Positions 29,215 through 50,025 of a stretch of DNA of 64,000 bases are shown here, piece after piece (within the stretch, counting starts at the first letter, position 1; every line of letters starts with the position of its first letter). The notes beneath the pieces were generated by a model, which was given only the letters and a program-made list of their open reading frames with translations, made no database searches and had not been told where the DNA came from. The position numbers and the translations under genes were made by a program. The DNA lies in NCBI RefSeq assembly GCF_902506375.1, contig NZ_LR733284.1, positions 1,453,147 to 1,517,146 of the forward strand, read 5' to 3'. Source of the DNA: Microbacterium sp. 8M (lineage in GTDB: Bacteria > Actinomycetota > Actinomycetes > Actinomycetales > Microbacteriaceae).

Positions 29215-30120
29215 TCAGCCGGCCAGATCCGGATCCGCCAGCAGCCGGCGCACGGTGCGCACGCCGAGGGCGGCCATGACGGGGTTGGAGCTCTCGTAGT
29301 ACCAGCCGAGCCCCATCGCCTGCTGCAACGCCCATGCCGCCCCACGCCGCCATTCCGCTTCGTCGGCGCCGAGCGCGGTCCGGAGCCGTCGCCGGGCGTC
29401 CAGATCGAGCAGGTGCCACGCCACCACGAGGTCGAGCGAGGGGTCCGCAGGGCCGAAGGAACCGCCGTCGAGCACGCCCGCCAGCCGGCCGCCCTCCGAG
29501 AGCAGCAGGTTCGGCGGGATCAGATCCCGGTGAGACATGACGTCCGCGCCGGGATGGGGAATATGCGACAGCCGCTCCCAGAGTGCGCGCGCAGCGTCGA
29601 CGTCGAGCAGATGCGCGCTCTTCTCGAAGCAGAGCGTCATCCACGTCTCATGCGCGCGGAGATCGCCGCCCCTGCCTCGTCCGTCGAAGCTGCGCCCGCG
29701 CAGCGGGGCGGCCCGGAGGGCGAGGATCAGGCGCGCCAGGTCGTCCGCGAGTCCCGAGGGCGGGGCGGCAGCGCCCTCATCCGGGAACGCCTCCGCCGCG
29801 GTCCGGCCAGGGAGCCAGGTCTGCACCGCCCACGCCGAGGGGTACCGGTCATCGCCGTCGGCCACCCCGAGCACCGTGGGAGCGGGGAACGGCGAGACCG
29901 CGGCGAACTCGTCCAGTGCGGCCGCTTCAGCGGCGACCTCGGTGAACGCGGCGCGCTGGAGCGGGAAGCGCGCGACGTGCGCATCCCCGATCCGGAACAG
30001 CGCATTCACCGTGCCCGGTGTCTCCACCGCGCGCACCGGGAGCCCGGCCAGGCCGGGAAAGGCCGCCGCGATCCTGCTGGCCACGGCGGCCTCGTCCACC
30101 CGGAGCTGCCCGGGGTGCAT
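29215..30120 (-). CDS. Aminoglycoside-phosphotransferase-family kinase, substrate unknown
   Basis: 301-aa APH-fold protein with an intact catalytic loop SHRDLIPPNLL (His197-Arg-Asp199, Asn204) and the metal-binding Asp218 in VLDGGSFGPADPSLDL. It is therefore a plausible active small-molecule kinase. ATG 30120 is eight bases after the pepP-like stop and follows GAGG; no start lies further upstream without entering that gene. No resistance phenotype should be assumed, since most chromosomal relatives in actinobacteria are uncharacterised. Confidence 0.85.
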   Translation of the reverse strand: MHPGQLRVDEAAVASRIAAAFPGLAGLPVRAVETPGTVNALFRIGDAHVARFPLQRAAFTEVAAEAAALDEFAAVSPFPAPTVLGVADGDDRYPSAWAVQTWLPGRTAAEAFPDEGAAAPPSGLADDLARLILALRAAPLRGRSFDGRGRGGDLRAHETWMTLCFEKSAHLLDVDAARALWERLSHIPHPGADVMSHRDLIPPNLLLSEGGRLAGVLDGGSFGPADPSLDLVVAWHLLDLDARRRLRTALGADEAEWRRGAAWALQQAMGLGWYYESSNPVMAALGVRTVRRLLADPDLAG

Positions 30121-42000: not shown

Positions 42001-42334
42001 GCCAGAGACGGAGGCGAAGGTGGTGGAGCACGCGCAGCTCGCCGCCTACCAGCTCGCCGTCGAGCAGGGGCAGGTGCCCGGCGCGGATCCCGCGGCTCTC
42101 GCGGGGGCCCGGCTGGTGCTCGTCGCCCAGACCATCGGGCAGAGCCCCTACCGGGTGGCGCACCAGCACCGCCTGGGCGACGAGGCGCGCGCCGCGTTCC
42201 TCGCACGCGTGGCCGAGGCCGGGCGCGGCATGGCCGCCTCCAGCTTCACCGCCCAGGTGGAGGCGCACTGCGCAGACACCCAGGTGCGGATCAGTCCCTG
42301 CCGGATCCACTCCATCCCGGCGGTGAGCGCATGA
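39089..42334 (+). CDS. adnA: AdnA-like helicase-nuclease subunit (UvrD motor plus PD-(D/E)XK nuclease)
   Basis: 1081 aa. SF1A motor at about 20-690: Walker A GGPGTGKT (27-34), PSRQAATALRDR, and Walker B LIDDAQELT (about 234-242), which differs from the usual DEYQD. Motif III-like FGDPDISSGAFRG and the late TLMTPATALGTEFDAVVIAG follow. A C-terminal RecB-like nuclease at about 800-1050 carries VVVVDLKTGKYEP and EHAQLAAYQLA. It forms the AdnAB complex that resects double-strand breaks in actinobacteria. Stop overlaps the adnB ATG by 4 bp. Confidence 0.92.
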   Translation: MPDAPAPPPAQAAVIDAPVTAVGTVIGGPGTGKTHTLVERTAALLAGGLGPEQVLALTPSRQAATALRDRIGVRVRVATPGPLARSLGSFAFQLVRGTMVHAGLEPPALLTGADQDRIIADLLDGDAEDEREGMPSRWPEHLGATVRSSRAFRSELRAFLAECTELGVTPGELEASERPAWRAVGSFARSYRRVLDRARSAHRDAADLLAEAATILRTAEPEMLGALSRLAVVLIDDAQELTAGGVALVAALRDRGIAVLAFGDPDISSGAFRGAGPELFADVVRLLGDVHVLDEPHRQDPPLTALTRTVVQTIGASGRVEHRRAPVTADAPTDPEAVQAFIAPSPHEEHDIIARTLREWHLLHGVPWERMAVIAHDTRQVAALEAELAAREVPTRAAGVQRPLGSEPVVRDIVGIVRLALTEPAERDPQLLAEALRTPFGGLDGVGLRRLRARLRHLELEAGGSAPARLLLRDGIAEPALLARVDTAEARTADRFGTMLREVREAWLRGETIHELLWRVWDASRAPDGRRLAVAWQEIAEASGPGGARATGTEIARALDALVALFDAAKRSVERAPEKGPEAFIHDILDTEVPEDSLSAPERPGTVTLMTPATALGTEFDAVVIAGVQDGVWPNVRLRGGLLETWRLGEAVAAARSGEPEHVHSTLDRRRAALHDELRLFVRAISRARHRLLVTAVDDDDQSPSAFFGFLPDPLPVDERHAHPLTLRGLVARHRRVLTTSADPAARAEAAGQLRLLAEAEVPGADPDGWFGVRPPSDDRPLRDLGIGSVPVSPSRLEAFEECGVNWAVAALGGDTVAPPSAGIGTIVHAAMELVPDGDLEEMRRILDERWGELDFETPWIDAKERRRADLYLQRLHGYLAEVRRQGGRVVAAEGGFRFAVDLGPEPAAHPIDPDNPAQQAVVSGYIDRVEAYPAGSGEHEAARGRTWNAMTAAAEGERVVVVDLKTGKYEPETEAKVVEHAQLAAYQLAVEQGQVPGADPAALAGARLVLVAQTIGQSPYRVAHQHRLGDEARAAFLARVAEAGRGMAASSFTAQVEAHCADTQVRISPCRIHSIPAVSA

Positions 42335-45300
42335 GCGTCACGACCGACCTGGCTCCGGCGGCCGTCGCGAGCGGGGGCGCCTGGGAGGGCGGCCACGGCA
42401 TCGCGGCGACCGACATCTCCGCCGCGCTCGGGCTGCCCACCCCGACGGAGGCGCAGCAGCGCGTCATCGAGGCCCCTCCCGGGCCCGCGCTCGTGGTCGC
42501 CGGTGCCGGCAGCGGCAAGACCGAGACCATGTCCGGACGTGTGGTCTGGCTCGTCGCCAACGGCTTCGTCGAGCGCGACGAGATCCTCGGCCTCACGTTC
42601 ACCCGCAAGGCCGCAGGGGAGCTCGCCGAGCGGATCTCTCTGCGCCTCGACCGCATCGACGAGTACGGCCGGCGCGGGCTGCTGCCGCACCTGCCGGAGA
42701 TCGTGCGCAGCGGCGCCCTGGAGCGCATCGGCGCAGCCGGATCCGCCGCGCAGCGGGCTGCGGTGCAGCGCGAGGTGCTGGACGGTCTCGCGGAGCGGTA
42801 CGGGACGGGCTGGGATCCGACGGCTCCGCGGGATGCCGCGGATCTGATCATCCGACCGCGGGTATCGACGTACAACGCGTTCGCGGACGGCATCGTGCGC
42901 GAGCACGCCGCGCACATCGGCCGCGATCCGGACGCCGCCATGCTCAGCCAGTCGGCCTCCTGGCTCATCGCCCGTGCGGTCGTGCTGCGGGCGGAGATCC
43001 CGGGGCTGGAGGAGGTCGACCGCTCGGTCAACGGCGTGATCGACGCCGTGCAGCGCCTCGCCGGCGACGTCCTGGACCACCGCGTGGACCTCGACGCGAT
43101 GGTCCGCATCGCCGTACGGCAGGCCGACGAGTTCGAGCCCTACCGCGGCAACGCCGACGTGGCGAAGGCCGTGGAGAACCTCCGCGCGATGCCGATCCTC
43201 GCGGACCTCGTGCGCGAGTACATCGCGGAGAAGTCGCGCCGCGGCGTGCTCGACTTCGCCGACCAGGTCGGCGGTGCCTTCGACATCGTGCAGGCGTCGC
43301 CCGAGGTCCGCGCAGAGCTGCGCGCCCAGCACCGGGTCGTGCTGCTCGACGAGTACCAGGACACGTCCGTGATCCAGACCCGGTTCCTCGCGGCGCTGTT
43401 CCGCGACGGCGCGGTGATGGCGGTGGGCGATCCGCACCAGTCCATCTACGGCTGGCGCGGCGCCAGCGCCGACAACCTCTACGCGTTCGGGCGCACGTTC
43501 GCCGAGGAGCAGACGGCGCGCACCTACAGCCTGATGACGAGCTGGCGCAACGACGAGCGCATCCTCGACGTCGCGAATCGAGTGCTGCAGCCGCTGCAGC
43601 GACCCGGGCTGGACGTGCCCGCGCTGGAGCCGCGGCCGGGATCGGGGCGGGGATCGGTGCAGGTGCGCTACACCGACACCGTCGACGACGAGGCCGCGGA
43701 GGTCGCCGCGTGGTTCGCGGAGCGCCGTGCCGCGCACGACGAGCAGGCGGCGGGGCGCCCGCACACGGGGGCGATCCTGTTCCGCTCCAAGCGGCACATG
43801 CAGACGTTCGCCGGTGCGCTTGCCGCCCGGGGGATCCCGCACCGGATCCTGGGGCTCGGCGGACTGCTCGCCACCCCCGAGGTGGTCGACGTGGTCTCGG
43901 CGCTGCGGGTGATCCACGACCCCACCGCCGGTTCGGCGCTGATCCGGCTGCTGGTCGGGCCGCGGTTCGCGGTCGGCGTGGCCGACATGGCGGCGCTGTA
44001 CGACCTCGCTCGCGAGCTCGCCGTGCGCGACGGCTCGCTCGCCCCGCTCACCGACGAGCTGAAGCAGCGTCTGCGCTCCTCCCGCGGAGCCGACGAGGCG
44101 GTCTCGATCGTCGACGCGGTCGACTTCGTCCGCACCGCGCGGGACGACTACCGGCTGCTCGAGGGCATCAGCCCCGCCGGCCGGGCGCGTCTGCGCGAAG
44201 CGGGGGAGATGCTGGAGCGGCTGCGGCGCGCCGCCGGGCAGCCGATCCTCGAGCTCATCCGCACGATCGAGACCGAGCTGCGCCTGGACATCGAGCTCGC
44301 GGTGAACGAGACCCGCGGCCCCGCCCGCGTCGCCGCGACCCAGCTGCGTGCATTCGGCGATGAGGTGCGCGCGTTCCTCACCGCGGACGACCGCGGGACG
44401 ATCTCCAGCCTGCTGGCATGGCTGGACAAGGCGGAGATGACGGACGAGCTGATGCCGCGCACCGAGCCGCCCGAGCCCGGCGTGGTGCAGCTGCTCACGA
44501 TCCACGGCTCGAAGGGGCTGGAGTGGGACGCGGTCGCCGTGGTGCGGCTGGTCGAGGACGAGCTGCCAGGCCGGATCGCCGACGCGCAGGGCTGGTTCGG
44601 GTTCGGGGTGGTGCCCTTCGCGCTGCGCGGTGACAGCGACGCCCTGCCGCGGTTCCGGTGGGATCCGGAGGCGGCGAAGGATGCGGCAGGTGACGACCCG
44701 CGCAAGCGCGAGAAGGCCGCCCTGGACTCGCTGGCCGCGGGCATCACGAAGGCGTATCCGCACGGTGGCGCACTGCGGCGGTTCAAGGACGAGTACCGCG
44801 AGTACCAGCGCGCCGAGGAGCGCCGCCTCGCCTACGTCGCGGTGACCCGCGCCCGGACCGACCTGCTGTTGACCGGCTCGCACTGGTCGGGGCAGAAGAA
44901 CATGCGCAAGCCCAGCCCCTACCTGCTCGAGGCGATCGACGAGCTCGGGCTCGACCCCGTGCCCGCGGCGGCGAGCGAGGAGAACCCCTACGAGGGCACG
45001 GCGCGCACGAGCGTGTGGCCCATGGATCCCCTCGGCGGGCGCCGTGCCCGCGTGACGGCGGCGGCCGAGGACGTGCGCCGGGCGATGGCGGATCCGCAGC
45101 CCGCTCAGCCCACCGAGGAGCTCGCGCGCCTGCTCGCCGAGCGCGCGGCCCGGCAGCGCGGGACGGTCGCCGACGCGCCCACCCGCGTGCCCGCGTCGCG
45201 GTTCAAGGACTACGTCGCCGACTACCGCGGCACGATCCGCACGCTCACCCGACCGATGCCGGAGCGGCCCTACCGGCAGACCCGCCTGGGCACGCTGTTC

Positions 45301-45873
45301 CACGCCTGGGTGGAGCACCGCTCCGGGTCCGTCGGCGTGGGCACCTCGCTCGACGACGCGCTCTGGGACCTCGACGACGACCTCGCCGCACCGGAAGGCC
45401 CCGGCACGGCGGGTTCGCCCGGAGACGGCTCGGCGGCGGACGAGATCGCGCGCGCCGACGCCGAGGACCTCGCGCGCCTGCGGGAGATCTTCGAGCGCAG
45501 CGAGTGGGCGCCGCTCAAGCCCATCGCGGTGGAGACCGAGATCGACTTCGCCCTGCCCGTGGGGGAGGGCGAGCCCGCGCGCATCGTCATCTGCAAGCTG
45601 GACGCGGTGTACCGTCGCGAGGACCGCGGCGGCCGGATCGAGATCGTGGACTGGAAGACCGGCCGCCCGCCGGCGACCGCGGCCGAACGCGAGGAGCGCA
45701 TGCTGCAGCTCGCGCTGTACCGGCTCGCCTACCACCGCCGGTACGGGGTTCCGCTGGACGAGATCGACGTGGCGCTGTTCTACGTCGCCGACGATCTGGT
45801 GCTGCGGGGCGACACGGTCTACTCGGAGGAGGCGCTGGTCCAGCGCTGGAACGCGGCACGCGCCGCGCGGTGA
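42331..45873 (+). CDS. adnB: AdnB-like helicase-nuclease subunit (UvrD motor plus PD-(D/E)XK nuclease)
   Basis: 1180 aa. Full UvrD/Rep motor: Q-motif PTEAQQRVIEAPPG, Walker A GAGSGKT (58-64), Ia LTFTRKAAGELAER, Walker B LLDEYQDTS, III GDPHQSIYGWRGA, IV SWRNDERIL, V IHGSKGLEWDAV, VI YVAVTRARTDLLL. The RecB nuclease domain at about 1020-1170 has a Glu in AVETEIDFAL, Asp-x-Lys in IEIVDWKTG, and QLALYRLAYH. It is expected to be the lead motor of the break-resection complex with AdnA. Its last 55 bases overlap the convergent pseudokinase gene. Confidence 0.93.
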   Translation: MSVTTDLAPAAVASGGAWEGGHGIAATDISAALGLPTPTEAQQRVIEAPPGPALVVAGAGSGKTETMSGRVVWLVANGFVERDEILGLTFTRKAAGELAERISLRLDRIDEYGRRGLLPHLPEIVRSGALERIGAAGSAAQRAAVQREVLDGLAERYGTGWDPTAPRDAADLIIRPRVSTYNAFADGIVREHAAHIGRDPDAAMLSQSASWLIARAVVLRAEIPGLEEVDRSVNGVIDAVQRLAGDVLDHRVDLDAMVRIAVRQADEFEPYRGNADVAKAVENLRAMPILADLVREYIAEKSRRGVLDFADQVGGAFDIVQASPEVRAELRAQHRVVLLDEYQDTSVIQTRFLAALFRDGAVMAVGDPHQSIYGWRGASADNLYAFGRTFAEEQTARTYSLMTSWRNDERILDVANRVLQPLQRPGLDVPALEPRPGSGRGSVQVRYTDTVDDEAAEVAAWFAERRAAHDEQAAGRPHTGAILFRSKRHMQTFAGALAARGIPHRILGLGGLLATPEVVDVVSALRVIHDPTAGSALIRLLVGPRFAVGVADMAALYDLARELAVRDGSLAPLTDELKQRLRSSRGADEAVSIVDAVDFVRTARDDYRLLEGISPAGRARLREAGEMLERLRRAAGQPILELIRTIETELRLDIELAVNETRGPARVAATQLRAFGDEVRAFLTADDRGTISSLLAWLDKAEMTDELMPRTEPPEPGVVQLLTIHGSKGLEWDAVAVVRLVEDELPGRIADAQGWFGFGVVPFALRGDSDALPRFRWDPEAAKDAAGDDPRKREKAALDSLAAGITKAYPHGGALRRFKDEYREYQRAEERRLAYVAVTRARTDLLLTGSHWSGQKNMRKPSPYLLEAIDELGLDPVPAAASEENPYEGTARTSVWPMDPLGGRRARVTAAAEDVRRAMADPQPAQPTEELARLLAERAARQRGTVADAPTRVPASRFKDYVADYRGTIRTLTRPMPERPYRQTRLGTLFHAWVEHRSGSVGVGTSLDDALWDLDDDLAAPEGPGTAGSPGDGSAADEIARADAEDLARLREIFERSEWAPLKPIAVETEIDFALPVGEGEPARIVICKLDAVYRREDRGGRIEIVDWKTGRPPATAAEREERMLQLALYRLAYHRRYGVPLDEIDVALFYVADDLVLRGDTVYSEEALVQRWNAARAAR

Positions 45874-47252
45874 GCGTCGGCGACGTCGGCTTCGGAGCCC
45901 GCGATCCCGCCTTCGCTGGGCAGCAGCGTGCCGGGCCGCCCTGGGCGCTCGTCGCCCTCGGCGCCCGTTCCCGGCTCCCCGTCGTCCGCCGCGGGGTCGC
46001 GCAGGTCGCCGAGGTCCTGCGTGGCGTTCGGATCCAGGTCCTCGAGGGCGCCGGTCGCGGTGAGGTCCTGTGCGTGCGCGGCGTCCCCGATGCCCGGGCC
46101 CTGCTCCTGTGCGTCCTCGTCCGGGGCGTCGGTCGTCGTCGCGAGCTGCGCGGCACCGCCTCGCGGGCCGAACGCGGAGGTGTCGTCCATGGCGATCCCC
46201 GCGAACTCGCTCGCGTCGTACGTGTCGGTCCGCATGGAGGTGTCGATGCGGTTCGCGCCGGTCGCCGGCACCCGCTCCAGAGCGGACATCGCCTCGTCCA
46301 CGCCCGCTCCGGCACTCGCGCGCGGGGCGAGATCGTCGTGGATGCCGTCCGCCAGCGCATCCAGCAGCTGGGCCGCGTCGTCGACGATGTCGGGGCGGTG
46401 GGTGTCGTGGCCGTGCAGCAGCCAGCGCGCGAGCTCCAGCTCGGCGAGCAGCCGGGCGCGGATCCCCAGTCCGGCGTCGGGCGCGCGCAGCGTGGCGGAC
46501 GCGTAGGCGTCCAGCACGTCGTCGCGGGCCTCCGCCGCCATCGTCAGCCACGCCAGGTCGACGGCGGGGTCGCCGATCGACAGCCCGTGCCAGCCCAGCA
46601 CGCCGGTCACCCGGGGACCGCGCTCGTCGTCGTCGGAGAACAGGAACGACTCCGCGTGGGCGCCGCCGAGCGTGACGGCCGACTCGAAGCGCCAGAGCTC
46701 GTCCGCCTCCGCGGCCTCGCGCCAGCGCACGGTGAGCCGCGCCGATACGCGCCCGGTCGCCGCCGCGCGATCGATGAGCACGCGCACGTCGTCGCGCGCC
46801 TCCGCCGGGGTGCGCTCGGCGAGCCCCGCTCCGCGCACGACGGAGGCGGGCAGCGCGTGCACCCCGGCGATCGCCTTGCCGATCGCGACCGCCGCGCCGG
46901 GTCCGGGCGGGATGTCGGCGGCGTCGATCTGGAATCCCGGCAGCAGCGTGGTGACCAGGGTGCGGGCGTCGCCCACGCGACCGTCGCCGAGGTGCTGGGG
47001 CGCGTCGAAGCGGAGCATCGAGCGGGCGCCGGGGGTGAGTGCGCGCAGCGCCAGGCTCTCCTTCGCGAGCTCGGCCGCCGTGTCGTCGTCGCTCGACGCG
47101 CGGATCGCGACCTCCGTGCCGTCGGCGAGCGTCGCCACGGCCGAGTCGAAGCGGGCGTCGCCGTCCGACGACAGGGCGCGGGCGCCGACGACATCGGCTC
47201 CGGGCACCGCCGCCGTGACCGCCGCGGCTAGAGTGAAGGGTGAGCGAGCCAT
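45819..47252 (-). CDS. Phosphotransferase-fold protein, probable pseudokinase
   Basis: 477 aa. APH-like N-lobe (GTEVAIRASS) and C-lobe, with the ending of the family's metal motif well kept (GDPAVDLAWL, about 227-236). The catalytic loop expected as HGDxHxxN reads TLGGAHAESFLF (194-205), and the metal-binding IDW reads LGWHG (219-223). The catalytic Asp, Mg-binding Asn and Mg-binding Asp are therefore all missing. About 170 residues of acidic low-complexity tail follow and run into the antisense of the adnB end. Leaderless start: TACCCT six bases before ATG 47252. Probably a regulatory or binding protein. Confidence 0.8.
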   Translation of the reverse strand: MARSPFTLAAAVTAAVPGADVVGARALSSDGDARFDSAVATLADGTEVAIRASSDDDTAAELAKESLALRALTPGARSMLRFDAPQHLGDGRVGDARTLVTTLLPGFQIDAADIPPGPGAAVAIGKAIAGVHALPASVVRGAGLAERTPAEARDDVRVLIDRAAATGRVSARLTVRWREAAEADELWRFESAVTLGGAHAESFLFSDDDERGPRVTGVLGWHGLSIGDPAVDLAWLTMAAEARDDVLDAYASATLRAPDAGLGIRARLLAELELARWLLHGHDTHRPDIVDDAAQLLDALADGIHDDLAPRASAGAGVDEAMSALERVPATGANRIDTSMRTDTYDASEFAGIAMDDTSAFGPRGGAAQLATTTDAPDEDAQEQGPGIGDAAHAQDLTATGALEDLDPNATQDLGDLRDPAADDGEPGTGAEGDERPGRPGTLLPSEGGIAGSEADVADAHRAARAAFQRWTSASSE

Positions 47253-47258
47253 GTCACC

Positions 47259-47264
47259 AGGGTA
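47259..47264 (-). promoter_or_regulatory. -10 box of the pseudokinase gene (leaderless)
   Basis: TACCCT on the minus strand, six bases (GGTGAC) before ATG 47252; the divergent nudC starts 69 bases away. Confidence 0.6.
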
Positions 47265-47320
47265 GGTCGAGCCTCGTCCGCACAGGGCCCGCCACGCCTG
47301 TGAGAAGGGGAGTCGTGACC

Positions 47321-48277
47321 GTGCCGGAGACCGTTCCCGAACCACTCGCCGATGACGCCACCGCGCTCGACACGGCCGTGCTCGACGGGGTCGTGCCGGA
47401 GGGTGCGTCCCTCGACAGGGCCGGCGAATGGCGCGACGACCCCGGCGTGATCCCGCGTCTGCGCGCGGATCCGCGCACCGGCGTGCTGGTCGTCCGCGAG
47501 CGTCGCGTGCCTCTCGGCGACGACGGCCTCATCCTCGTGCCCGCGGGCGATGCCGTGCTGGCGCGCACGCGGGAGTGGGCGCTGCTGGGGCGCCGCCCGG
47601 ACGGCTCCGGCCTCCTGCTCGCGCTGCAGGATCCGGACGACGACACCGATGCCGACGGCTCCTGGGCGCCGCAGTGGAGCGACCTGCGTGAAGCGCTCCC
47701 GGTGGTCGGCGCCGCCGACGGCGAGCTCGTGGTCGCCGCGATCGCGCTGGCCGGATGGCTGCGCGACGCGGCCTTCTGCCCGGCCTGCGGGCATGCCGCC
47801 GAACTGCGTCAGAACGGATGGTCGCGCCACTGCCCCTCCTGCGGTCGCGAGCACTTCCCGCGCACCGACCCCGCGGTCATCGTCGCGGTGCAGAGCGCAG
47901 ACGGCGAGCGGCTCCTGCTCGGCGCGAACGCGCAGTGGAAGGGGCGCTTCTACTCCTGCTTCGCCGGATTCGTGGAGGCGGGTGAGTCGCTGGAGACCAC
48001 GGTGCACCGGGAGCTGTTCGAGGAGTCCGGGGTACGTGTGCGCGACGTGCGCTACTTCTCCTCGCAGCCGTGGCCGTTCCCGCGCTCGCTCATGGTGGGA
48101 TTCCACGCCACCGCGATCGACGAGCAGACGGCCCACGGCGACGGCGAGGAGATCATCGACGTGCGCTGGCTGACGCGAGAGGAGATCGGATCCGCGCTCG
48201 CCGGCTCCGGTCCTGTGGGGCTTCCCGGCGCGGCGTCGATCGCGCACCGTCTCATCGCGGACTGGTATCGGCGGTGA
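47321..48277 (+). CDS. nudC: NADH pyrophosphatase NudC (Nudix)
   Basis: 318 aa. Zinc ribbon CPACG...CPSCG (about 154-174), then the Nudix box GFVEAGESLETTVHRELFEE with the following SG, and the NudC-specific SQPWPFPRSLM. It hydrolyses NAD(H) to NMN(H) and AMP, and in E. coli removes NAD caps from RNA. GTG 47321 is preferred (GGGGAG eight bases upstream); GTG 47315 is possible, and an ATG at 47240 would overlap the divergent gene. Stop overlaps the uvrD2 GTG. Confidence 0.93.
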   Translation: MPETVPEPLADDATALDTAVLDGVVPEGASLDRAGEWRDDPGVIPRLRADPRTGVLVVRERRVPLGDDGLILVPAGDAVLARTREWALLGRRPDGSGLLLALQDPDDDTDADGSWAPQWSDLREALPVVGAADGELVVAAIALAGWLRDAAFCPACGHAAELRQNGWSRHCPSCGREHFPRTDPAVIVAVQSADGERLLLGANAQWKGRFYSCFAGFVEAGESLETTVHRELFEESGVRVRDVRYFSSQPWPFPRSLMVGFHATAIDEQTAHGDGEEIIDVRWLTREEIGSALAGSGPVGLPGAASIAHRLIADWYRR

Positions 48278-50025
48278 GTGCGCTCGACGGTCTCGACGAA
48301 CGCCAGCGGGAGGCCGCATCCGTGCTGCGCGGACCGGTCGCGGTGCTGGCAGGCGCCGGCACCGGCAAGACGCGGGTGATCACGCACCGCATCGCGCACG
48401 GGGTGGAGACCGGCGCGTACTCGCCGGCGCGCGTGATGGCGGTGACGTTCACCGCGAAGGCAGCGGGAGAGCTCCGCGGCCGGCTGCGGGCTCTGGGCGT
48501 ACAGGGAGTCGCCGCCCGGACGTTCCATGCCGCGGCGCTCGCCCAGCTCGGCTTCTTCTGGCCGCAGCTGGCCGGGGCGCCGGCACCGGCGATCGTGGAC
48601 AACAAGGTGCGCCTGCTGGCCCAGGCCGCGGACATGCTGCGGCTGCGCCCCGACACGGCGACCCTGCGGGATCTGGCCTCGGCGATCGAATGGCGCAAGG
48701 TCTCGATGCTCTCCATCGACGAGGTCGCCGCGCGCGGCCGCTCGATCGGACGGTTCGACGCACAGCAGGTCGCCGACCTGTCGCGCGCGTACGAGACCCT
48801 CAAGGACGATCGTCACCAGCTCGACTTCGAGGATGTGCTGCTCGCGTGCGCCGGGATGCTCGAGGCGGAGCCGCGCGTCGCCGCCGCGGTGCACGAGCAG
48901 TACCGGCACTTCACCGTCGACGAGTATCAGGACGTGTCCCCGCTGCAGCAGCGGCTGCTGGAGCTGTGGCTCGGCGACCGCGGGGATCTGTGCGTCGTGG
49001 GCGATGCATCGCAGACCATCTACTCGTTCGCCGGCGCCGATCAGAACTACCTCCTCGACTTCGCCCGACGCCACGCCGACGCCACGGTCGTGCGGCTCGA
49101 GACCAATTACCGGTCCGCCGGCAGCGTGCTCGATGTCGCGAACGCGCTCATGAAGGGTCGCCCTGGCGCGCTCGAGCTCGTCCCGGCGCCGGAGCGGCGG
49201 ACGGCCACCGCCGCGTCAGCGCAAGCCACCGCGCCCGCCGTGGCGGACAGCGCCGTCGTGGTCGCGTTCGACGACGACGCAGAGGAGGCCCGCGGCGTGG
49301 CGGCCGCGATCGCCGCGCGCATCGCGGCCGGCGTGCCGCCCGAGGAGATCGCCGTGCTGTACCGCGCGCACTCCCAGTCTGCGATCCTGCTGCAGGCGCT
49401 GGCCGCCGCGGGCGTGGCGGCGACCGTGCTGGGCGGCAAGCGCTTCTTCGACCTGCCCGAGGTGCGCCAAGCCGTGCAGGCGCTGCGGGCGGCGGCGGTG
49501 GCGCCGCAGCAGCACTCCTTCCTGGCCGCGGTGCGCGACGTGCTGCGCGGTCTCGGTTTCAGCGACGATCCGCCCGAGGCGGGCGGTGCGCTGCGCGATG
49601 CCTGGGAGGCGCGCCGCGCCGTGCTGCGCCTCGCTGAGGACGCTCCGGCCGGCACCACGATGCGCGAGTTCGCCGACGATCTGTTCGCGCGCGCCAAGGA
49701 CCAGCACGACCCGGTCATGCGCACGGTGACCCTGTCCACACTGCATGCGGCGAAGGGCCTGGAGTGGCCCGAGGTGTACCTCGTGGGCTGCTCGGAGGGG
49801 CTGCTGCCCATCTCGTACGCGACCGGGTTCGAGGCGATCGACGAGGAGCGTCGCCTCGCCTATGTCGGCGTCACGCGGGCCGCGCGAGCGCTGACGCTGA
49901 CCTGGTCCCGCGACGCGGATCGGGCAGGACGGCGGCCGTCGCGCTTCCTTGCGGAGATCGGCAGAGGCAGTCTGCGTGAAATCCGGCCGTCTGAGATGAT
50001 CGGACGCCGCCGCGGCGGATCCTGA
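48274..50025 (+). CDS. uvrD2: UvrD2-type DNA helicase lacking the HRDC/tetracysteine tail
   Basis: 583 aa, SF1A. Walker A AGAGTGKT (26-33), Ia VTFTAKAAGELRGR, Walker B FTVDEYQDVSP (about 212-222), III GDASQTIYSFAGA, IV TNYRSAGSVLDVANAL, V STLHAAKGLEWPEV, VI RRLAYVGVTRAARALTL. Mycobacterial UvrD2 is about 700 aa with HRDC and Cys4 modules at the C-terminus; here only about 45 residues follow motif VI. Coupled to nudC (GTGA). The last 155 bases are antisense to the next gene. Confidence 0.9.
   Translation: MSALDGLDERQREAASVLRGPVAVLAGAGTGKTRVITHRIAHGVETGAYSPARVMAVTFTAKAAGELRGRLRALGVQGVAARTFHAAALAQLGFFWPQLAGAPAPAIVDNKVRLLAQAADMLRLRPDTATLRDLASAIEWRKVSMLSIDEVAARGRSIGRFDAQQVADLSRAYETLKDDRHQLDFEDVLLACAGMLEAEPRVAAAVHEQYRHFTVDEYQDVSPLQQRLLELWLGDRGDLCVVGDASQTIYSFAGADQNYLLDFARRHADATVVRLETNYRSAGSVLDVANALMKGRPGALELVPAPERRTATAASAQATAPAVADSAVVVAFDDDAEEARGVAAAIAARIAAGVPPEEIAVLYRAHSQSAILLQALAAAGVAATVLGGKRFFDLPEVRQAVQALRAAAVAPQQHSFLAAVRDVLRGLGFSDDPPEAGGALRDAWEARRAVLRLAEDAPAGTTMREFADDLFARAKDQHDPVMRTVTLSTLHAAKGLEWPEVYLVGCSEGLLPISYATGFEAIDEERRLAYVGVTRAARALTLTWSRDADRAGRRPSRFLAEIGRGSLREIRPSEMIGRRRGGS

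Follow-up and report, generated by a model that had tools for sequence, protein, structure and literature searches.

A probable pseudokinase derived from a macrolide-phosphotransferase-like enzyme, encoded beside repair-helicase genes in Microbacteriaceae

We analysed a 64,000-nucleotide stretch of Microbacterium sp. 8M (contig NZ_LR733284.1; hereafter the window) that carries a gene of the aminoglycoside phosphotransferase (APH) type at 45819-47252 on the minus strand, between adnB and nudC; we call this gene X. Its reading frame is intact from 47252 down to 45819, and the plus strand of this interval is not the gene. The protein consists of a 310-residue domain, assigned a kinase-like fold by its Pfam APH match and by profile alignment with macrolide phosphotransferases (Mph), followed by an acidic low-complexity tail of 167 residues. 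The Pfam APH match spans residues 48-258 and scores 45.2 bits against a cut-off of 23.2. The features of the locus are collected in Table 1.

The initial annotation described three catalytic losses in an otherwise full-length gene, and all three are present in X of the window. Leu-Gly-Gly stands in place of His195-Gly196-Asp197 in the catalytic loop, the loop metal ligand at position 202 (five residues after the catalytic Asp, D+5) is Ser, and the metal Asp at position 220 is Gly, in the motif LGWHG. The GDPAVDLAWL segment that follows is unbroken, as had been noted, and its Asp228 and Asp232 occur in 163 of 163 rows of our alignment. The loop was originally read as a lost HGD-x4-N. It is indeed degenerate, but that reading needs one correction: classical APH enzymes have Asn at the loop metal position, whereas the catalytic loop of the Mph structure 5igh is HGDLYVGH, so the reference residue at D+5 is His and the change is His to Ser rather than Asn to Ser. 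Because the nearest solved relatives have His at this position, Asn was perhaps never present in the X lineage. In MphH, the catalytic residues are Glu196, His201, and Asp214 (PMC5760710).

The alignment comprises 163 rows, 157 of them distinct: 83 rows (77 distinct) come from the window's family, Microbacteriaceae, and 80 distinct rows come from the rest of the order. The 77 distinct family rows divide into 67 outside a small-genome set and 10 within it. Asp197 is missing in 82 of 83 family rows (76 of 77 distinct ones), and the sole distinct family row that has it comes from a small genome. With the small-genome set left aside, 65 of the 67 rows have Gly, Ser, Ala, or Thr at position 197 and 65 have Ser at 202, whereas position 220 is Gly in 51, Asp in 7, and Glu in 7. 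The losses are not peculiar to X of the window.

Over all 157 distinct rows, Asp197 is found in 68, His or Asn at 202 in 46, and Asp220 in 40. The full set (H-G-D, x4-H or N, and the metal Asp) occurs in 20 rows, all 20 from outside the family, and the classical type, with Asn combined with Asp197 and Asp220, occurs in none of the 157. By group, complete sets are found in f3 (1/1), f5 (3/3), f51 (2/2), f52 (6/8), f55 (1/1), f57 (6/6), and f48 (1/8). Orthologues with intact motifs, which the initial annotation had named as evidence against a pseudokinase, therefore exist; given that they are confined to other families, they indicate that the loss of catalytic residues in the window's family is derived, and they leave the pseudokinase reading within that family standing. 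The loss of essential catalytic motifs among orthologues is a feature of the family and not of the order as a whole.

In a quick tree of 116 rows, built with the motif columns excluded, the window's family forms one side of a branch with a support of 99, and most groups are likewise single; f47, f48, and f52 each require two changes. The minimum numbers of changes on this tree are 9 at Asp197, 15 at Asp220, and 11 at position 202, counts that are independent of the root and that alone cannot separate loss from gain. We take Asp197 to be ancestral because the Asp is present in Mph. Six family rows have long branches and two of these are joined directly, so that fine placement there is uncertain. 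Of the loci added later, six from f45 retain Asp197, and the eight from f46 have Gly at 197 in all seven that were read. In f46 (L260-L266), a further Asp-less group that is absent from the tree, HGG replaces HGD.

Despite these losses, X is almost never lost. It is found in 58 of 59 genomes of the genus (52 of 52 near-complete ones), in 119 of 120 genomes of the family (109 of 109 near-complete), and in 197 of 198 genomes of the order at E<=0.001; in 191 of the 198 the match is clear (E<=4e-29). The six weak order matches (E of 1e-15 or worse; G441, G457, G528, G538, G547, and G581) come from assemblies of 250-1,060 contigs. Genomes of 0.8-1.7 Mb still have X; in one single-contig family genome of 927,303 bases (L224, G073) it lies beside adnB and uvrD2, with no nudC nearby. 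For one locus (L021, G010), the genome search reported X with one internal TGA, but tblastn of the fetched locus found no X. In a class sample of 246 genomes, 21 order members match the X profile at 166 bits or more; outside the order, 36 genomes match at E<=1e-12, none above 99.6 bits, and we set these aside as other APH or Mph proteins. A search of the window's own genome at E<=0.001 returned a single match, X itself, so there is no second X-like paralogue at that threshold, and we dropped the idea that X regulates an active close paralogue.

The domain is also under strong purifying selection. The ratio of nonsynonymous to synonymous substitution rates (dN/dS) of the domain is 0.007-0.19 among family pairs above 80% identity, and 0.13-0.14 for X of the window against loci L002 and L003, the nearest two relatives of the window. 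Domain identity to these two loci is 89.0% and 88.7%, respectively, compared with 89% and 85% for adnB, 90% and 81% for adnA, 74% and 80% for nudC, and 59% and 57% for the tail of X. The best tblastn segment between X of the window and that of L003 has 78% identity, against 89% across the domain.

Which residues does selection maintain? Over the 157 distinct rows, the most invariant columns are A10, H132, W177, D228, A230, D232, and R265, followed by G106, E271, L278, W187, R176, Y250, and L300. The Asp197 column ranks only 167th of 304 in these rows, and 199th of 310 in family rows alone. With the small-genome rows set aside, all 67 remaining family rows have Arg51 in strand beta-3 and Gly106, and 65 of them have Glu or Asp at position 65. 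Because His132, the RW pair, Asp228, and Asp232 also occur in Mph, they may be residues of the fold. The profile left the first 13 residues of X, and the part after residue 251, unaligned with Mph. The initial suggestion that the protein is kept for binding or regulation gains support within the family from the 119 of 120 genomes that retain it, from purifying selection, and from catalytic positions that are less constrained than many other columns.

The nearest solved structures are Mph enzymes. The window protein alone scores 41.3 bits, and a profile of 37 members (A1) scores 117.9 bits with Mph(2')-I (5igh), 113.9 with MphH (5uxb-5uxd), and 89 with Mph(2')-II (5igu, 5ih0). Pfam APH matches all 37 members of A1, which places X in the Mph/APH superfamily by descent. 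X of the window does not have the marks of an Mph by function: it has LGG-x4-S where Mph has an HGD or HGE-x4-H loop, Gly220 in place of the metal Asp in (I/L)DW, and 14-38 bits (maximum 37.7) with the NCBIfam Mph models, whose cut-offs are 500-650. Mph and X are similar across most of the domain and share the beta-3 Arg, and the intact members elsewhere in the order also share the HGD-x4-H loop and (I/L)DW. In contrast, X of the window's family is without the catalytic Asp, without the His, and mostly without the metal Asp; X also has conserved N-terminal and C-terminal sequence for which the profile gave no alignment with Mph, and it is chromosomal and order-wide.

The aminoglycoside kinases APH(3') and APH(2'') belong to the same Pfam superfamily but are more distant from X than Mph is, with at most 37.3 bits for chains named APH(2''); a chain named gentamicin resistance protein scores 47.2 bits with the X profile. 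Elsewhere in the window, the APH-family gene at 29215-30120 (minus strand), proposed earlier as an internal contrast, does have an HRD-x4-N loop and the Asp (SHRDLIPPN, VLDGG); it scores 86 bits with Pfam APH, and its nearest NCBIfam model is APH(3'), far below the cut-off. Bacterial Ser/Thr pseudokinases (ActPs1-3, DYD, and others) resemble X in having a kinase-like fold with catalytic motifs lost, in being conserved in actinobacteria, and in some cases in having Arg for the beta-3 Lys, but they belong to protein-kinase families (PMC12599244). The main text of that review does not contain the term APH, and aminoglycoside kinases are mentioned there as active drug targets. In the open-access literature (PubMed Central), we found no paper that pairs pseudokinase with aminoglycoside phosphotransferase and actinobacteria, or with macrolide phosphotransferase, and among the matches listed for AdnAB, UvrD2, nudC, Mph, and bacterial pseudokinases none describes X, judging by title and the start of the abstract.

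Turning to the neighbourhood, adnB lies within 2.5 kb of X in 80 of 110 loci, uvrD2 within 6 kb in 95, and nudC within 1.5 kb in 76, leaving 34 where nudC is not near. At least one of the two helicase genes is within these distances in 106 of 110 loci. The exceptions are L156, a 4-kb contig; L173, which is cut on the adnB side and has uvrD2 about 6.2 kb off, just beyond the fetched stretch; L216, where both helicases are about 9 kb from X; and L273, taken up below. Gene orientation hardly varies: X and adnB converge in 82 of 83 cases, and X diverges from nudC in 75 of 76 and from uvrD2 in 94 of 95, with L179 as the single exception in every comparison. X is 57-86 bp from uvrD2 in six small-genome family loci, with no nudC within the fetched region, to which this check was confined. 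In f46, X is 72-207 bp from uvrD2 in eight of eight loci, divergently, and adnB is missing from the region; a search for AdnB in six f46 genomes placed its best match on another contig or about 85-115 kb away. In ten f45 loci, adnB is the only one of the three neighbours remaining. nudC is unmatched in 10 of 198 order genomes, six of which have a clear X (G446, G459, G474, G490, G510, and G576); the other four are fragmented assemblies in which X itself is only a weak match. Distance-matrix partial correlations over 58 loci are 0.44 (0.22 to 0.57) for X with adnB, 0.28 (0.12 to 0.46) for X with uvrD2, and -0.01 (-0.21 to 0.24) for X with nudC.

The gene had been called leaderless. As promoter architecture this is well supported: wherever the start could be identified, in 66 of 66 family orthologues (54 + 12), a TANNNT element ends 6-7 nt upstream of it, compared with 1.6% of shuffled sequences and none of the 54 at an offset position. 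Two of the loci L001-L068 were not used in this count: L019, where the start was not found, and L021, where tblastn found no X. In the 54 aligned family sequences, there is also a conserved G-rich stretch about 28-35 nt upstream of the -10 element, possibly the start region of nudC or an operator. X (ATG at 47252, minus strand) and nudC (GTG at 47240, plus strand) may overlap head to head at 47229-47264, and -10-like elements lie close to both starts (TACCCT for X, TAGAGT for nudC). The start of nudC is uncertain; if it is GTG 47240, the two promoters would interlock.

At its other end, X overlaps adnB tail to tail, the length being exactly 55 bp throughout the window's clade of the genus (21 of 21 members), and the C-termini of X and AdnB both read QRW, from opposite strands. 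We make no claim for the C-terminal peptide EAQRAARAALQRWKSSSSE as a binding motif, because the antisense overlap may account for part of its conservation; conservation of the C-terminal QRW motif, too, may be partly imposed by AdnB. In eight loci of a sister clade (L024, L025, L027, L029-L031, L063, and L064), AdnB stops about 20 codons earlier and the overlap is lost, and X keeps a C-terminus of the ERASEAALRRW type. Given that a similar tail persists there without the overlap, some constraint of X's own on this peptide is possible.

Table 1 Features of X and its neighbours in the window.
Feature	Coordinates	Strand	Remarks
X, probable pseudokinase gene of Mph/APH type	45819..47252	-	477 aa; stop codon 45819-45821
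Conserved domain of X, residues 1-310	46323..47252	-	Identity and dN/dS computed against L002 and L003
N-terminal element MARSPFTLAAAV...PG	47199..47252	-	Majority consensus MARSPLTLAALA; mostly ahead of Mph-alignable stretch
Arg51, beta-3	47100..47102	-	Invariant in family rows other than those of small-genome set
RW...LWRF element, residues 173-189	46686..46736	-	Near-invariant
Degenerate catalytic loop TLGGAHAESFLF	46638..46673	-	H195L, D197G, H/N202S
LGWHG	46584..46598	-	Gly in place of metal Asp220; Trp221 retained
GDPAVDLAWL	46545..46574	-	Asp228 and Asp232
C-terminal part of domain	46353..46478	-	Past Mph-alignable stretch; D259, R265, E271, L278, L300 near-invariant
Acidic low-complexity tail of X	45822..46322	-	Computed isoelectric point 4.05
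-10-like element TACCCT	47259..47264	-	6 nt ahead of X ATG
Convergent 3'-end overlap of X and adnB	45819..45873	.	55 bp
adnB	42331..45873	+	Convergent neighbour of X
nudC	47240..48277	+	Divergent neighbour of X; start uncertain, GTG at 47240 or 47315
uvrD2-type helicase of superfamily 1	48265..50025	+	Start inferred

Taken together, these results make it likely that X of the window's family is a pseudokinase that derives from an Mph-like enzyme and is retained for binding. X would be vertically inherited, and its selected function in this family would no longer depend on phosphoryl transfer. The retained residues of the N-lobe, together with a loop that is remodelled yet constrained, suggest that the pocket still binds without transferring phosphate; X probably binds a nucleotide or similar ligand there, without metal-dependent catalysis, and the RW/LWRF motif and the conserved elements at the N-terminal and C-terminal ends probably serve to engage a protein partner. 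DNA binding is not suggested by the domain, which is acidic (median computed isoelectric point 4.84 over 163 rows). The opposite view, that X is a decaying leftover, could point to the missing catalytic residues, the fast-evolving tail (57-59% identity), and the long branches in small genomes, but it is contradicted by the dN/dS values, by near-universal retention even in genomes of 0.8-1.7 Mb, and by promoter spacing conserved in 66 of 66 orthologues, and we regard it as hardly credible. It is also improbable that X has remained an enzyme by relying on other residues. Some so-called pseudokinases have proved to be enzymes, for example by adenylyl transfer, and Asp228 and Asp232 are universal in our rows; these two residues, however, are also found in active Mph (VDDPAID in 5igh) and so look like ordinary residues of the family, and in the conservation ranking we saw no additional acidic residue, invariant and specific to the family, close to the loop, although closeness is hard to judge from sequence.

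What, then, might X bind? One possibility, which we hold tentatively, is that X is a receptor whose Mph-derived pocket holds a nucleotide or a small molecule, macrolide-like or not, and leaves it unmodified. The score of 117.9 bits with 5igh, the retention of Arg51, acidic 65, and Gly106 in the family, and the constrained loop (a small residue at 197 and Ser at 202, each in 65 of 67 rows) are consistent with this, and the absence of Arg51 from part of the other families is not. For a protein partner, the repair helicases are our leading guess, though a doubtful one: X might serve AdnAB and/or UvrD2 specifically, in a non-catalytic role as adaptor, loader, or brake, a reading we consider possible and no stronger, and the partner of X could conceivably lie in the AdnAB/UvrD2 repair-helicase set, whose activity or recruitment X would then modulate. 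The nearness of one or other helicase gene in almost all loci argues for such a partner, as do the small-genome and f46 loci that keep X by uvrD2, the f45 loci that keep adnB alone, and partial correlations that are higher for adnB and uvrD2 than for nudC. There is also a precedent, in that the mycobacterial dUTPase binds AdnA and stimulates AdnAB (PMC13309787). Against it, no single helicase is always near X, and adjacency could reflect conserved chromosome order. The link to AdnAB proposed in the initial annotation is thus compatible with the position of adnB and unproven, with f46 keeping X by uvrD2 while its adnB match lies elsewhere. A bolder version, to which we give less credence still, is that the break-repair and UvrD2 helicases have X as a core subunit or regulator throughout the order; X would have arisen from a macrolide-kinase-like enzyme and dropped catalysis independently in several lineages, only a nucleotide-gated binding surface having mattered. 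That X regulates NudC, or the NAD(H)/RNA-cap pool, is more improbable than any of these: the genes are divergent, their 5' ends would overlap in the window if nudC starts at GTG 47240, and 76 of 110 loci have the two close together, but six order genomes with a clear X have no nudC match, nudC is distant in 34 loci, and the partial correlation is about zero, although greater noise or mobility of nudC could explain this last value. Given that X persists where nudC is missing or lies at another place, we rank NudC lowest of the three as a partner and reject it as the main one; the role in nucleotide pools suggested at the outset is disfavoured for the same reason.

Several observations weigh against a pseudokinase retained for binding, or against extending it beyond the family or to the helicases. 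In the rest of the order, Asp197 is present in 67 of 80 distinct rows, His or Asn at 202 in 45, Asp220 in 32, and the complete Mph-type set in 20, and the Asp197 column ranks 79th of 310 in non-family rows, which is not low. Since many of these rows keep Asp197, Asp220, or the whole set, catalysis may still matter outside the family, and the claim that X needs no catalysis is weaker for the order than for the family. Arg51 is found in only 5 of 10 small-genome family rows, with Arg at this position in 60 of 80 non-family rows, and because it is missing from some of them nucleotide binding may not be general. An AlphaFold2 model of the domain (window, L002, and L003) gave a mean predicted local distance difference test score of 35.8 and a predicted template-modelling score of 0.19 and was discarded. 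As for the helicases, adnB and uvrD2 are near-universal in the order (198 of 198 genomes at E<=0.001, 193 of 198 at E<=1e-60), so their co-occurrence with X is uninformative and the synteny may be inertia; at the uncut locus L273 neither helicase lies within about 6 kb of X; and the partial correlations were run without an unrelated core gene as a control.

The general APH family is the one match that X-like proteins give, and they could be mistaken for antibiotic phosphotransferases, which would be misleading for the window's family. X also offers a natural experiment, in which the catalytic Asp column of one orthologous gene requires at least nine changes on the tree and the gene itself is hardly ever absent; intact and dead orthologues could be exchanged to see what such a fold contributes once catalysis is gone. 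The regulation of AdnAB is termed largely unexplored in the mycobacterial dUTPase paper (PMC13309787), and if the partner of X is AdnAB or UvrD2, X would provide a handle on how these helicases are regulated.

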